From positions 3,410,001-3,474,000 of the forward strand of contig NZ_AP022617.1 in NCBI RefSeq assembly GCF_010731575.1: 64,000 bases of DNA, given 5' to 3'. The translations under genes and the position numbers were made by a program. The notes below the pieces were generated by a model. It searched no databases and was not told where the DNA came from. It saw only the letters and a program-made list of their open reading frames with translations. Origin of the DNA: Mycolicibacterium monacense. GTDB lineage: Bacteria > Actinomycetota > Actinomycetes > Mycobacteriales > Mycobacteriaceae. Every line of letters starts with the position of its first letter. Position 1 is the first letter of the stretch. Shown here in pieces: positions 56,798 through 64,000 of this stretch.

Positions 56798-57784
56798 TCA
56801 CGGCGCCACCGCGGCGCGGAGCGCGCCGGTCGGCGGGGACGCCAGTACCGAAGCGACGTCGGCGAGACCGACCGGATCGGACACCACTGCGGCCCACGGG
56901 TACGCATCCCGGGTGCGGTTCAGGAAGGCGACCGCCTGCCCGAGGTGGCGCGGCTCGTAGTTGTGCACGCCGCAGATCGTCCACCAGTTGCGCACCACCC
57001 GCTCGGGGTCGAGCGACACCGGACGGCCGGGCATGACCGAGCCGGCCAGGACCAACACTCCCCCGATGTCCAGACGTGCGATCGCAGCCTCGACCGCGTC
57101 CGCGGCGCCGGTGAAGTCGACGGCGACGTCCACCGGTCCGCCCGTGTCCGCAGCGGCGCCGAACTGCGCGGCCAGCCGCAGCCGCTCCGCGACGATGTCG
57201 AGCACGCGCACGTGCGCCCCCGCGTGCGCGCACGCCGCCGCGGCGGTGACCCCGAGCATGCCCGCACCGCAGATCAGGACGCGCCGCCCGGTCAGCACAC
57301 CGGCGGCCTCCAGCGCGGCCATCACCGTGGCCGTCGCGCAGGCCGCGGGCGCGGCCACCCGGTCGTCCAGCCCGGCAGGCACCCGCACGACCGTGACGCC
57401 GTCGGGCAGGGCGATGTACTCGGCGTAGGTGCCCGACAGCGGCCAGTCCCCCTCGACCGGTTCGTGGCCCACCTTGCGCACCACCGCGCATTTCGCGGTG
57501 CGGCCCGCCCGGCATCGGGGACACTGCCCGCACGCGGCGGTCACCGACCAGACCACGCGCTCACCGACGGCCAGACCGCGCCGCGGATCGGGCACCACGA
57601 CATCGCCGACAGCCTCGTGGCCGAGCACGCTCGGACACGGGCTGTGCCGCCGCCCCGCGACGGTGTGCAGATCGCTGCCGCAGACGGTGGCCAGCCTGAT
57701 CCGCACGATCAGCGCGTCGTCGTGTGGCACCGCCACCTCGCGGACCTCGACGCCCTGCCCGGTCCACACCGCGGCCCGGCTCAC
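56798..57784 (-). CDS. Zinc-dependent alcohol dehydrogenase, phosphonate-cluster type
   Basis: The GTG at 57784 overlaps the phnE stop; 328 residues. Catalytic-zinc ligands: Cys in TVCGSDLHTV near 35 and the GHEAVG segment near 55. The structural-zinc cysteines CGQCPRCRAGRTAKC are near 84-98. The NAD(P) motif is ICGAGMLGVTAAAA near 167. It fits the dehydrogenase subfamily recurrent in phosphonate operons (TIGR03366 from memory). It may oxidise or reduce an aldehyde or alcohol produced during phosphonate breakdown. Last gene of the minus-strand operon. Confidence 0.85.
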   Translation of the reverse strand: MSRAAVWTGQGVEVREVAVPHDDALIVRIRLATVCGSDLHTVAGRRHSPCPSVLGHEAVGDVVVPDPRRGLAVGERVVWSVTAACGQCPRCRAGRTAKCAVVRKVGHEPVEGDWPLSGTYAEYIALPDGVTVVRVPAGLDDRVAAPAACATATVMAALEAAGVLTGRRVLICGAGMLGVTAAAACAHAGAHVRVLDIVAERLRLAAQFGAAADTGGPVDVAVDFTGAADAVEAAIARLDIGGVLVLAGSVMPGRPVSLDPERVVRNWWTICGVHNYEPRHLGQAVAFLNRTRDAYPWAAVVSDPVGLADVASVLASPPTGALRAAVAP

Positions 57785-59382
57785 ACCAGGCGCGACCGGA
57801 TCCACCCCGACAACCTCTCGATGGCGTACACCACGACGAAGATCACCAGCACGATCGCGCCGGCCACGTCGAAGTTGAGCGTGCGGATCGACTCGAACAG
57901 CAGATATCCGATACCGCCCGCTCCCACGATGCCGAGAATCGTCGAGGTGCGGACGTTGACGTCCAGCATGTAGAGGCTCGACCCCACCAGGGCGGGCATC
58001 GACTGGGGGATCACGGCGGCGAACAGGGTCTTCCACCACCCGCCGCCCACCGAGCGCACCGCCTCCATCGGCCCCGGATCGATCTCCTCGACCGCGTCGG
58101 CCACCAGTTTGGCCAGGAAACCCACGGACCCGACCGCCAATGCGCACGTCCCGGCGACCGGGCCGAGTCCGAGCGCGGCGACGAACACCACCGCGAGGAT
58201 CAGTTCGGGGACCGAACGGACCAGCAGGATCCACCCCCGGGCGGCCCAGTGACACCACGGGTGCGGGGTGACGTTGCGCGCCGCCAGGAGTCCCACCGGG
58301 ATCGACAGCACGACCCCGATCGCGGTCGACACCACGCCGATCGCGACGGTCTGCACCGCCGCGTCGACCAGGCCGGCGCCCATCGCGCCGAAGTTCGGCG
58401 GGAACATCCGCCCGAACACCTCGATGGACGGGCCGACCCAGGTCACCAGAGCCCACGGGCTGATCCGCAGTTCGATCAGCGCGGCGATGCCGGTCGCGAT
58501 CACCGCACCGGCCAGCAGGATCCGGGCGGCGCGGTCCCGTCGGGGGCGCGACATCGACGGGTCGAGCAGCACCCGACGCACTCCGATCGAGACCACCTCC
58601 ATCGCGGCGATGATGACGAGGATGACCAGGACGATGCCGAGCGCACGGGGATAGACCAGCCCGCGCAACGCGTCCTGCAGAGCGAAGCCGATACCGCCCG
58701 CCCCGACGAAGCCGAGGACCACCGAGATCCGCAGATTGATGTCGATCCGGTAGACGAAAGTGCCGATCCACGACGGAACAACCTGCGGCAGAACGGCATT
58801 GATCATTTCACGGAAGTAGCCGACGCCCGTGCTGCGGACCGCTTCGCGCGGACCCGCATCGCTCTGCTCGATCGCGTCGGCGAACAGTTTGCCGAGCATC
58901 CCGATCGAGTGCAGGGCCAGCGCCAGGATGCCGGGAAGGACTCCGATACCCAGTGCCCGCACGAACAGCACGGCGAACAGCAGGTCGGGCATCGCGCGGC
59001 AGAAGGTGATGACAGCGCGTGCGACGGCGTGGACCGCGGGGTGCGGCGTGGTGTTGCGGGCGGCCATGAACGCCAGCGGTACCGACGCGACAGCGGCCAG
59101 GATCGTGCCGAGCACCGCCATCAGCAGCGTCTCGACCGCCAGCCCGCCGATCCGGCCGGGATCGTCGAGGCGGGGCGGCAGCATGCGTTCCACGAGCGCC
59201 GCGACCTCGTCGAATCCGTCGATCAGCGCGGCCGGTGCGAAGTCGATGTACCAGGCGGCGGCGAGCGTCGCGATCAGCGCGCCGACCGCGATCAGTTGCC
59301 CGGGAAGGGCCCCCGTCGCCGAGCCGGATCCTGGCCGCGGCGGTCCTGCGCCGCGCGGTGGCGCCGACAGTGGGGTGTTCAC
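57781..59382 (-). CDS. phnE: Fused phosphonate ABC transporter permease (PhnE-PhnE)
   Basis: 533 residues containing two complete permease domains in one chain. Each has the EAA-type loop: GPREAVRSTGVGYFREM near 175 with GFVGAGGIGFAL, and GPMEAVRSVGGGWWKTL near 445 with GIVGAGGIGYLL. About 12 helices. In many bacteria these are two proteins (PhnE1, PhnE2). With PhnC and PhnD it forms a phosphonate (or phosphate) importer. GTG start overlaps the phnC stop by four bases, and its own stop overlaps the dehydrogenase start. Confidence 0.92.
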   Translation of the reverse strand: MNTPLSAPPRGAGPPRPGSGSATGALPGQLIAVGALIATLAAAWYIDFAPAALIDGFDEVAALVERMLPPRLDDPGRIGGLAVETLLMAVLGTILAAVASVPLAFMAARNTTPHPAVHAVARAVITFCRAMPDLLFAVLFVRALGIGVLPGILALALHSIGMLGKLFADAIEQSDAGPREAVRSTGVGYFREMINAVLPQVVPSWIGTFVYRIDINLRISVVLGFVGAGGIGFALQDALRGLVYPRALGIVLVILVIIAAMEVVSIGVRRVLLDPSMSRPRRDRAARILLAGAVIATGIAALIELRISPWALVTWVGPSIEVFGRMFPPNFGAMGAGLVDAAVQTVAIGVVSTAIGVVLSIPVGLLAARNVTPHPWCHWAARGWILLVRSVPELILAVVFVAALGLGPVAGTCALAVGSVGFLAKLVADAVEEIDPGPMEAVRSVGGGWWKTLFAAVIPQSMPALVGSSLYMLDVNVRTSTILGIVGAGGIGYLLFESIRTLNFDVAGAIVLVIFVVVYAIERLSGWIRSRLV

Positions 59383-61203: not shown

Positions 61204-61875
61204 TCAGGCGGAGAGCAGGAGCTCGGGGAGGCGGGCGACGGAGTCCAGCACGTGGGTCGCCCCGGCGGCGCGCAGCGCCCGTTCGTCGTGCGCACCGGTC
61301 AGCACACCGGCGACGGTGACGGCCCCGGCCCGCAGCCCGCAGGTGACGTCGCTCGCCGTGTCACCCACGACGGCGACGCTGCGCACGTCGTCGACACCGG
61401 CGCGCATGAGCGCGGTCAGCACGAGGTCGGGGTGCGGACGGCCGCGCACACCCGGTCCGGGGGCCAGCACCAGGTCGGCGAGCCCGTCCCAGCCGAGCGT
61501 GTCGAGGATGCGCTGCTGGGTGGCCGGGCTGAACCCGGTGGTCAACGCCACCTGGACGCCGGATGCGCGCAGTTGCGAGATCGCCTCCGCCGCACCGGGG
61601 ACGGGTTGGACACCGCCGTCGATGTAGTGGTCGTAGGCCTTCTCGAAGGCGGTGTTGGCCGCCTGCGCGCGGTCATCGCTGCCGAACAGCGCGCGGAAGA
61701 CCTCGATCTTGGATTGGCCCATGGTGTCGACCACGTACCGGCGTGCCCGGTCGCGTTCGGCGCCGTCCTCGGGCACGCCGACGGCGGTCGCCGCTTCGTC
61801 GAAGGCACGGATCACCAGTCCGTCGTCGCGGACCGTCGTGCCTGCCATGTCGAGTACGGCGAGTTCTGTGCGCAT
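61204..61875 (-). CDS. Phosphonatase-like HAD hydrolase (PhnX-like)
   Basis: 223 residues from ATG 61875 with GGAAGGTG before it. HAD motif 1 is DMAGTT at residues 9-14, the DxAGTT form of phosphonoacetaldehyde hydrolase. Lys56 in TMGQSKIEVFRAL lies where PhnX has its Schiff-base Lys (MGxxKxxHxRAL). Motifs 2 and 4 are LTTGFSPAT near 91 and VVGDTASDV near 166. The most likely substrate is phosphonoacetaldehyde or an analogue, giving an aldehyde plus phosphate. Family TIGR03351 by pattern. A PhnF-type operator lies 76 bases upstream, between this gene and the oxidase gene. Confidence 0.85.
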   Translation of the reverse strand: MRTELAVLDMAGTTVRDDGLVIRAFDEAATAVGVPEDGAERDRARRYVVDTMGQSKIEVFRALFGSDDRAQAANTAFEKAYDHYIDGGVQPVPGAAEAISQLRASGVQVALTTGFSPATQQRILDTLGWDGLADLVLAPGPGVRGRPHPDLVLTALMRAGVDDVRSVAVVGDTASDVTCGLRAGAVTVAGVLTGAHDERALRAAGATHVLDSVARLPELLLSA

Positions 61876-61950
61876 GCCGATCACCTTCCGATGTGGTCTG
61901 GGCCAAAGAGTTCCGACGAGTGGAACCGCAGGTGAACAGCTGCCGACAAA

Positions 61951-61964
61951 CTGGTCTATACCAA
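61951..61964. promoter_or_regulatory. PhnF-type operator, downstream copy
   Basis: The core TGGTCTATACCA (61952-61963) is the exact reverse complement of the second copy's core TGGTATAGACCA. It lies between the oxidase and HAD genes, so the HAD-phn genes may have their own regulated promoter. Confidence 0.7.
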
Positions 61965-61970
61965 TCGCGG

Positions 61971-63086
61971 TCACAGGCCGAGGAGGTTGGCGGTCTGTTC
62001 GGCCAGCGCGGGTCCCAGCGTCATCCCGCGACCGCCGGGACCGGTGATCACGTGGACACCCTCGCCCGGCGACCGGCGGCACACAAGCTCGTGCGGGTCG
62101 ACGCACTGGCTGTAGACACCCGCCCAGCGCCGCTCGACCGCGGGCAGCGCACGGCCCAGCAGCTCCTCGACGAGTCCGGTGAGGTAGGCGTACGGGTCCT
62201 CGGAGACGTCGAAGGTGAACGGTTCGCGGTACTCGTGGGTGTCGCCGATGGTGAGTCCGCCGTCCAACCGCTGCACGCACAACAGCTGCATGTGGTGCTG
62301 TTCGGCGACCACGTCCTGCGGTTGGCCGCGTACGAGGTCGTCGGCCGCCGCACCCGTGAAACCCGGGTAGTAGCGCATGCTGTCACCGTCCGCGACAGCC
62401 GTGGGGAGGGTCTCGCCCAGCGGCGCCGTCTGCATCATCTGCAGCCGCACCCGGCGCACCGGCAGGTCGCCCGCCAGCTCGCGCACCAGTCCCCCGTGGG
62501 CCGCACCCGCGCACACGATGACGAGGTCTCCGACGTGGCGCCGGCCGTGGTCGTCGCGCACCGTCTGCCCGGCCACCTCGCGCGCTTCGGTCGAGGACAG
62601 GAAGGTGTACCGCCCGGTGGCGGCGAGATACTCTCGCATCGCCGGGAGCGCGCGGCGAGACTCCACAGCGGCGTCCCTCGAACAGAGCAGTGCGGCAACG
62701 AATTTCCCGCGGAGCGCGGGGTTCAATGCGCGAGCCTGTTCGGGTTCGACGAGGGTGAACCCGCGGACGGCGGCGTCGGGCCGGGCGGCGACCTCCTCGG
62801 CCACCGCGACCTCGGCCGGTGTGCGCAGCACGGTGAGCGACCCGGTGGCACGGAAGCCGATTCCGGGTACGGCAGCGCCGAGTTCCTCCCACAGTTCCCG
62901 CGCGCGCAGTGCGGCGTCGAGTTCCCCAGTGGCCCGCCCGGATACCCACACGAGGCCGAAGTTGCGCACGGTGGCGCCCCGTGCCTCCGGCTCACGCTCG
63001 AGGTGGACGACCTGATGGCCGCGCCGCACCGCTTCGATGGCGTGAGTGGTACCGAGGATTCCGCCGCCGACGATGATGACCCGCAT
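61971..63086 (-). CDS. FAD-dependent amine oxidase of the phosphonate cluster (TIGR03364-like)
   Basis: 371 residues from ATG 63086, preceded by GGAGGG. DAO-fold features: IIVGGGILGTTHAIEAVRRG (residues ~4-23), then a Glu at the end of the second strand (LEREPEARGATVRNFG), and the C-terminal GPGGRGMTLGPALAEQTA. Enzymes of this group recur in phosphonate operons, and some oxidise 2-aminoethylphosphonate or its N-methyl form to phosphonoacetaldehyde. That would feed the HAD gene next door. First gene of the minus-strand operon, opposite the HD gene. Confidence 0.85.
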   Translation of the reverse strand: MRVIIVGGGILGTTHAIEAVRRGHQVVHLEREPEARGATVRNFGLVWVSGRATGELDAALRARELWEELGAAVPGIGFRATGSLTVLRTPAEVAVAEEVAARPDAAVRGFTLVEPEQARALNPALRGKFVAALLCSRDAAVESRRALPAMREYLAATGRYTFLSSTEAREVAGQTVRDDHGRRHVGDLVIVCAGAAHGGLVRELAGDLPVRRVRLQMMQTAPLGETLPTAVADGDSMRYYPGFTGAAADDLVRGQPQDVVAEQHHMQLLCVQRLDGGLTIGDTHEYREPFTFDVSEDPYAYLTGLVEELLGRALPAVERRWAGVYSQCVDPHELVCRRSPGEGVHVITGPGGRGMTLGPALAEQTANLLGL

Positions 63087-63160
63087 GGGCGCACCCTCCC
63101 GCCGTCCGGCGACGGGGCGCCGACGCCGAGGTGGTCGCCAGGCGAACGCCACGTGAACCA

Positions 63161-63174
63161 TTGGTATAGACCAA
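63161..63174. promoter_or_regulatory. PhnF-type operator in the divergent promoter
   Basis: TTGGTATAGACCAA is a perfect palindrome (5+4+5). Its 12-base core TGGTATAGACCA equals the PhnF site I recall from M. smegmatis phnD/phnF. It lies between the oxidase (starts 63086) and HD (starts 63194) genes and could control both. Confidence 0.8.
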
Positions 63175-63193
63175 TCGCTGTTAGGCTGGGCCC

Positions 63194-63724
63194 GTGACGA
63201 TCCGCGAGCAGACGGTCACCCTTCTCGGCTCATTGCGCGGGGTGTGGGACGAGGTGGCCGTCGACGAACTCGACCATGCCCTGCAGTCGGCGGCTCGCGC
63301 CCTCGAGGACGGCGCGGACGACGAACTCGTGCTCGCCGCGGCCCTGCACGACATCGGCCACAGTCCGCTGTTGGCCGGTGGTTCCGCGGCGCACGACCGC
63401 ATCGCCCTGGAGTGGCTGACTCCACGGTTCGGCGCCCGTGTGGGGTGGCTGGCCGGCGCCCACGTCGCGGCCAAACGCCATCTCGCCGCGACCGAACCGG
63501 GTTACGCCGCTGCGCTGAGCGACGTCTCGATCACCTCGCTGCACCGGCAGGGCGGCGCCGCGGTCGACCCCGAACTGGTCGCCCACCCGTGGTGGCACGA
63601 CGCGCTCCGCCTGCGGCGTTACGACGACGCCGCCAAGGACCCTGCAGCACAAGGTGCCGACATCGAGACGGTCGTGACCGTGGCCGAACGTGTCGCAGCG
63701 GGGCAGAATGAGCGTTCGTCGTGA
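63194..63724 (+). CDS. PhnZ-like HD-domain protein of the phosphonate cluster
   Basis: 176 residues from GTG 63194. The HD-fold metal ligands are visible: DHALQSA (His28), LHDIGH (His52, Asp53, His56) and AHVAAKRHL with His89 and His95, then a C-terminal Asp region. It matches the HD proteins of phosphonate operons (TIGR03276; PhnZ), mixed-valence diiron oxygenases that cleave the C-P bond of hydroxylated aminoethylphosphonate. PhnZ's mobile Tyr and Glu appear replaced (Trp18 and a shifted acid), from a remembered alignment, so the exact reaction is unsure. Overlaps the regulator start (GTGA). Confidence 0.8.
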   Translation: MTIREQTVTLLGSLRGVWDEVAVDELDHALQSAARALEDGADDELVLAAALHDIGHSPLLAGGSAAHDRIALEWLTPRFGARVGWLAGAHVAAKRHLAATEPGYAAALSDVSITSLHRQGGAAVDPELVAHPWWHDALRLRRYDDAAKDPAAQGADIETVVTVAERVAAGQNERSS

Positions 63725-64000
63725 CCACCGACGCGATCCGCGTGTCGAAGACCCACCTCATCCGCACCGAACTCGACAGTCTGCTGGCCGGATCGGCCGT
63801 CGGCGATCCGGTGCCGGCAGAGCGCGAACTGGCGGTCCGCTTCGGGGTGGCGCGGGAAACGGTGCGCCAGGCCCTGCACGAGTTACTGGTGGAGGGCCGC
63901 ATCGAACGCCGGGGCCGCGGCACGGTGGTCTCGAAACCCAAGCTCGTCCAACCGCTTTCGCTGAAGTCGTACACCGAGGGTGCGGTGGAGATGGGCCGCA
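63721..64000 (+). CDS. GntR-family regulator, PhnF/HutC-like (3' end outside window)
   Basis: The first 93 residues of a GntR regulator. The winged HTH is complete: PAERELAVRFGVARETVRQALHELLVEGRIERRGRGTVV (in part RELAVRFGVARETVRQALHE). The C-terminal effector domain is cut off; the start of a UTRA-type domain is hinted by LSLKSYTEGAVEMGR. Coupled to the HD gene by a GTGA overlap. The two TGGTATAGACCA palindromes nearby make it the likely PhnF homologue repressing the cluster. Confidence 0.85.
   Translation, partial: MTTDAIRVSKTHLIRTELDSLLAGSAVGDPVPAERELAVRFGVARETVRQALHELLVEGRIERRGRGTVVSKPKLVQPLSLKSYTEGAVEMGR

Follow-up and report, generated by a model that had tools for sequence, protein, structure and literature searches.

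Predicted control of an aminophosphonate-degradation cluster by a PhnF-type regulator, with putative operators and PHO/RegX3-like boxes at two catabolic promoters of Mycolicibacterium monacense

In M. smegmatis, the repressor PhnF acts at two sites and has divergent target genes, and the expression of phnDCE, whose reported cargo is phosphate and not phosphonate, rises at phosphate limitation (PMC7866108). The solved structure 3F8M is that of this protein, in which Arg98 contacts a sulphate; the related regulators DasR and NagR bind the phosphate of their effector through helix ends and a pair of arginines (PMC4918961). Domains of NagR have been crystallised on GTGGTCTAGACCAC (PMC4333415), and double sites at a constant distance were found in 32 of 60 HutC divergons (PMC4494728). 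On the enzymatic side, PbfD1 is annotated as TIGR03364, and outside the PbfD1 subgroup the PbfD oxidase genes occur mostly with phnX alone (PMC10590968). A word search of the main text of that paper returned no mention of mycobacteria, actinobacteria or a regulator, and PhnF control of PbfD is not reported in the titles and abstract openings that were searched, a scope outside which most subscription journals lie.

The 64-kb stretch of DNA analysed here (the window) contains a locus that resembles the PhnF/phnDCE system of M. smegmatis in its GntR-UTRA regulator, its divergent targets and its two sites (PMC7866108), but differs in that the targets include a PbfD-family oxidase, a PhnX-like HAD hydrolase, HpnZ and a PhnZ-like HD gene, and in that there is a second, separate promoter. 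We propose, with a probability of roughly 0.78, that PhnF represses the promoters of PbfD and of HAD-phnDCE-adh as well as its own, and that RegX3-type activation is added. In this way a PhnF-type GntR/HutC repressor would govern two transcription units of aminophosphonate degradation as well as its own unit, binding at one operator (O1, 63160-63175) where PbfD and HD-phnF diverge, and at another O1 (61950-61965) plus a weak O2 (61894-61905) before HAD-phnD-phnC-phnE-adh. Because both catabolic promoters carry a PHO/RegX3-like box close to O1, they are expected to fire when low phosphate has made RegX3 active and an effector, probably a phosphonate or a phosphorylated compound, has displaced PhnF. 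The likely importer encoded by phnDCE appears to be under PhnF control alongside the breakdown enzymes, which would add the predicted degradation of aminophosphonates to the functions of a regulator that has been studied in connection with phosphate transport.

The gene of the regulator starts at 63721 on the plus strand, as the first-pass annotation of this DNA had stated, occupies 63721-64000 and runs on to 64434 outside the window (L007:2221-2934). Its product has a GntR domain (PF00392, 42.2 bits, cut-off 27) and a UTRA domain (PF07702, 99.5 bits, cut-off 23.8), and among solved structures 3f8m scores highest (243.7 bits), ahead of DasR (173.4) and YvoA/NagR (105.3); the full-length protein therefore has the effector domain and the affinity to PhnF on which that annotation had made its identification depend. 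With DasR and NagR/YvoA, which are GntR/HutC proteins with dre sites, the regulator shares domain architecture and operator class, but its scores to them are lower, and their regulons concern amino sugars, whereas the one predicted here concerns phosphonate. The score to 3f8m is well below that of the protein of a close M. smegmatis-type locus, L079 (391 bits). The window regulator also misses the cut-off of the NCBIfam PhnF model TIGR02325 (96.5 of 156.8 bits), as does the L079 protein (110.4 bits), and is therefore termed PhnF-type and left unassigned to TIGR02325. Positions 97 and 128 are among the invariant arginines of the regulator alignment; Arg97 of the alignment would be the counterpart of Arg98 in M. 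smegmatis PhnF, and the arginine pattern fits a phosphonate or phosphorylated effector.

The sites had been described as flanking enzymes of C-P metabolism, and the genes that they serve do belong to such families. The FAD-dependent oxidoreductase (61971-63086, minus strand) exceeds the cut-off of TIGR03364, the family of PbfD1 (347.4 bits, cut-off 285.1; PMC10590968), and its coordinates place it between the two sites, as annotated. Also on the minus strand are a PhnX-like HAD hydrolase (TIGR03351, 61204-61875; 250.8 bits, cut-off 218.9), a phnD-type substrate-binding protein (TIGR01098, 60198-61172; 177.9 bits, cut-off 112.05) that fails to reach the equivalog cut-off for PhnD (174 of 261.1 bits), the phnC ATPase (TIGR02315, 59379-60194; 270.9 bits, cut-off 266.1), a fused, double-length phnE permease matched by TIGR01097 in two stretches (57781-59382; 512.5 bits, cut-off 216.7) and an HpnZ-type alcohol dehydrogenase (TIGR03366, 56798-57784; 372 bits, cut-off 328.1). 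The HAD protein misses the cut-off of the PhnX phosphonatase model TIGR01422 (79.9 of 220 bits) and is hence PhnX-like only. On the plus strand, the first gene of the HD-phnF unit (63194-63724) encodes an HD-domain protein that aligns with PhnZ (4mlm, 64 bits) and misses the cut-off of the Phn-HD oxygenase model TIGR03276 (122.2 of 214.6 bits), hence PhnZ-like only; no 2OG-dioxygenase partner for it is found among the annotated cluster genes. From the known chemistry of PbfD (PMC10590968), the oxidase is predicted to convert N-methyl-AEP or AEP to phosphonoacetaldehyde, from which phosphate would then be released by the PhnX-like HAD. Unlike the described pbfD-phnX clusters, this one is found in an actinobacterium and carries PhnF-type sites, and its HAD is PhnX-like and not PhnX by cut-off.

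The predicted O1 between PbfD and HD-phnF (63160-63175) reads ATTGGTATAGACCAAT and has its core at 63162-63173, while the predicted O1 of the HAD-phnDCE-adh promoter (61950-61965) reads ATTGGTATAGACCAGT on the minus strand and has its core at 61952-61963. The letters agree with the first-pass annotation in showing two 12-mers, which read TGGTATAGACCA at 63162-63173 and TGGTCTATACCA at 61952-61963 on the plus strand. Its "perfect palindrome" TTGGTATAGACCAA is imperfect: an A/G pair close to the centre interrupts the symmetry, which the 16-mer shows at only 7 of 8 pairs. TGGTATAGACCA is probably the published operator of M. smegmatis PhnF, given L079, whose close PhnF has two exact copies at its promoter, 59 bp apart and with GTTAACC between them; the only match to the 12-mer in literature text was in an unrelated paper. 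The stretch L079:4792-9400 contains phnDCE and adh, and no HAD or PbfD match. A degenerate second site of the HAD promoter, the predicted O2 (61894-61905, TGGCCCAGACCA on the minus strand), lies 58 bp from O1 and has 2 mismatches to the pattern TGGTNTANACCA.

This pattern has 2 matches in the window and none in each of 100 dinucleotide shuffles, so that a chance origin of the two sites was rejected. They are perfect complements of each other over 14 nt, and since the match between them is only 14 nt in the region 61860-63260, they were also rejected as ends of a longer repeat. Genome-wide (6.04 Mb), TGGTNTANACCA occurs at 6 places versus 3 for the reversed control, with the exact 12-mer at three of the six, two of which are this locus. 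When up to 2 mismatches are allowed, the 16-mer ATTGGTNTANACCAAT has 3 places versus 2 for its control, namely 63160-63175 (0 mismatches), 61950-61965 (1) and one elsewhere (2). A possible -10 element, TAGGCT, is seen by eye at 63182-63187 on the plus strand, six bases before the GTG start of the HD gene, as for a leaderless transcript, and with this element O1 might cover the -35/spacer; a scan of 61800-63260 returned no sigma-70 consensus promoter.

On the catabolic-gene side of each operator there is a box of the form GTTCAC-N5-GTTC, which the first-pass annotation missed, together with the degenerate second site of the HAD promoter and the recurrence of the HAD-side site and box. The PbfD box (63144-63158, minus strand, GTTCACGTGGCGTTC) lies 3 nt from O1, and the HAD box (61923-61937, minus strand, GTTCACCTGCGGTTC) lies 14 nt from it. 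These two are the only matches to the box pattern GTTCACNNNNNGTTC in the window, versus 0.12 expected, and each stands beside an operator. They are 11-nt direct repeats of GTTCACC type, and appear to fit both the PhoP box, a GtTCAccnnnn repeat in 11-nt direct repeats (PMC6754071), and the quoted RegX3 site, GT/GTCAcc-n4-cG (PMC7884335). The strict box GTTMACCNNNNGTTC occurs at 8 places genome-wide versus 0 for the control, and by eye only three of these are promoter-like (L176, which is the HAD promoter, L177 and L178). A related box, GTTCATTTTCCGTTCACC (GTTCAT-N5-GTTCACC), lies upstream of pstS in the same genome and is not among the 8 strict places.

The geometry recurs in relatives. PhnF homologs (E <= 1e-30) were found in 53 of 151 genomes of the family, the window's own included, and 51 larger stretches (six weaker matches omitted) were joined with 80 named loci, selected as the best of 164 relatives; the closest among the matches listed are Mycobacterium and Mycolicibacterium records. 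The 131 loci gave 112 distinct upstream regions after identical ones were merged; the collections overlap, near-copies remain, and the regions come from kin organisms, so the counts are not independent events. Of the 112 regions, which precede phnF or HD-phnF, 105 contain strict TGGTNTANACCA (106 within 1 mismatch), versus 7 of 22,400 letter shuffles of these regions. The six regions without a site within 1 mismatch belong to L074, L083, L087, L088, L090 and L150, none of which gave a PbfD or HAD match above threshold; the converse fails, given that L153, L161 and L162 carry sites and no PbfD/HAD match in the stretch.

When the box was scored (7 or more of the 8 scored positions) at offsets 0-59 from the first site of the 106 regions, in 6,339 tests, it was found 3 nt from O1 in 93 of the 112 regions and 14 nt from it in 7, and offsets other than 3, 14 and 15 gave only 5 hits. 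A looser pattern counts 12 cases at 14 nt where this tighter score counts 7, one of which is L093, a PbfD-type region with a degenerate first repeat. By the same score 12 of the 112 regions are box-less, including L094 of the window's own clade. Of the 93 regions with the 3-nt gap, 49 have an O2 with at most 1 mismatch at a distance of exactly 47 bp; of the 7 with the 14-nt gap, 6 have one at 58 bp. The PbfD promoter of the window has the 3-nt layout and, like 44 of those 93 regions, lacks the O2 expected 47 bp from O1, and the HAD promoter has the 14-nt, 58-bp layout with an O2 of 2 mismatches. Where phnF directly faces HAD, which is the case in 10 loci, the 14-nt/58-bp layout is found in six (L078, L080, L086, L089, L091 and L092) and the 3-nt, 47-bp layout in the other four (L081, L082, L084 and L085). 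This recurring promoter layout seems to join substrate and phosphate control, and the natural variants, with one or two operators at 47 or 58-59 bp, offer a way to study promoters at which a repressor and a two-component activator act jointly.

The presence of a PHO-like box at both promoters also suits the view that PhnF senses phosphate status, not phosphonate, and that the regulon is simply induced by phosphate starvation, as the behaviour of M. smegmatis phnDCE under phosphate limitation and its phosphate cargo would suggest (PMC7866108). We consider this unlikely, although it deserves some weight: the genes are of aminophosphonate-breakdown families, and a second phosphate sensor would be redundant beside a separate phosphate box. 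Moreover, L109, a locus without phnDCE, has a 2-aminoethylphosphonate-type ABC transporter next to HAD (L109:3605-7526), in the place of phnDCE, which points to AEP-like substrates; its binding protein and one permease are above cut-off (NF011620, 439.5 bits; NF011624, 395.6 bits), and its ATPase and other permease are below.

In the proposed regulon, HAD-phnDCE-adh would be controlled from a promoter of its own. The window's clade in the PhnF tree comprises the window, L042, L093, L094 and L095. The HAD-side core has 0 mismatches in the window and 1 in each of the four relatives, and a box precedes HAD in all, at a distance from the site of 14 nt in the window, L042 and L093 and of 15 nt in L094 and L095. 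An O2 follows in L094 and L095 (TGGTCTGGACCA, 1 mismatch, 59 bp from O1), a poor one is found in L093 (3 mismatches, 58 bp), and none was seen on the HAD side of L042. The gap between PbfD and HAD is 95-106 bp in the four relatives, versus a site-less 24-42 bp in six displayed loci without phnDCE (L096, L097, L098, L102, L109 and L115); L075-L077 do have phnDCE, and their gap, of 38-39 bp, is also without a site. Because site, gap and box are kept in the clade, while the loci with short gaps are site-less, HAD-phnDCE-adh probably has its own promoter there. The first-pass annotation had suggested that these genes could be regulated separately from the oxidase, and this probably holds for the promoter, with its own PHO-like box and a site in all four clade relatives, but not for the regulator, which would be the same. 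Its broader reading, a PhnF-type regulator-operator pair acting on catabolism genes, appears supported by the sequence evidence.

The short, site-less gaps, the single mismatch in the core of the four relatives and the lack of a terminator in a scan of 61800-63260 could alternatively mean that the HAD-side site is a relic, HAD-phnDCE-adh being expressed by read-through from the PbfD promoter and only 63160-63175 being of importance. This is improbable, given that few blocks of the 5-locus alignment are as well conserved as the operator and box, that the wide gap is kept in the four relatives and that the 14-nt and 58-bp spacings are shared with the six loci mentioned above in which phnF faces HAD, even if the other four have the 3-nt, 47-bp spacings.

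As to its origin, the cluster might be a merger of two PhnF circuits, a unit of phnF-HD and divergent pbfD, with its box at 3 nt, and a HAD-phnDCE-adh unit, with its box at 14 nt and O2 at 58 bp, that lost phnF and kept the promoter. The layouts differ by 11 bp, the length of one box repeat and roughly that of a helical turn, and for this reason PhnF would act on RegX3 in a phase-dependent manner (anti-activation) and not by simple occlusion of the polymerase. In the HAD tree, 79 rows without nearby phnC and phnE fall on one side of a branch that excludes the window (SH-aLRT 98), and the window clade is placed with phnDCE-bearing loci (branch support 98). In the PhnF tree, the window's 5-row clade lies within a 49-row group, the other 44 rows of which are without phnC and phnE (SH-aLRT 94), and thus among mycobacterial loci that lack phnDCE; in the PbfD tree, the closest neighbour of the clade is row L151, without phnDCE. 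Grouping of the five window-clade HADs with 39 transporter-less mycobacterial HADs, chosen by locus number after inspection of the tree, was not rejected by the AU test (p-AU 0.077), and neither was their grouping with all 79 (p-AU 0.461). The two layouts do not sort cleanly (6 versus 4 among the 10 loci with HAD opposite phnF), and the 3-nt layout in four of these loci and the 15-nt gap in L094 and L095 make the merger less likely; this hypothesis is only partly supported, and we regard it as doubtful.

The first-pass annotation drew on the 12-mer as the PhnF operator, but as a diagnostic mark of PhnF it was rejected, given that an exact copy at 1100684-1100695 (L008:5685-5696) lies ahead of a second gene with GntR and UTRA domains (G000:C1:1100821-1101576; L008:5822-6580), divergent from an operon of an amino-acid permease, an FGGY kinase and an FAD oxidoreductase. 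Cross-talk is thus possible. A TGGTNTANACCA site is present in 10 of the 11 loci of this second regulator, the window's genome included, and the 12-mer appears to fit the general HutC-subfamily consensus NyGTMTAKACNy (PMC4494728). That another HutC-family regulator, such as this one, also or mainly binds the phn sites is nevertheless very improbable, since the flanks ATTGGT..ACCAAT, common at phn sites, are not kept at its sites, the 16-mer ATTGGTNTANACCAAT within 1 mismatch is confined in the whole genome to the two places of the phn locus, and the phn sites adjoin the gene of their own regulator. The outer ATTGG..CCAAT bases may give specificity to PhnF.

When 296 genomes of the class were searched beyond the family, 91 gave matches, among which were many weaker GntR-UTRA relatives. 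TGGTNTANACCA was absent from 14 regulator loci outside the family (L204-L217) over about 1.5 kb on each side, and therefore the operator pairing is seen in the family only; PbfD lies beside the PhnF-like regulator in 13 of these 14 loci. Among the loci compared, L133, from a record titled Kitasatospora arboriphila, has a layout like that of Williamsia muralis (L130), and possibly represents a mislabelled strain.
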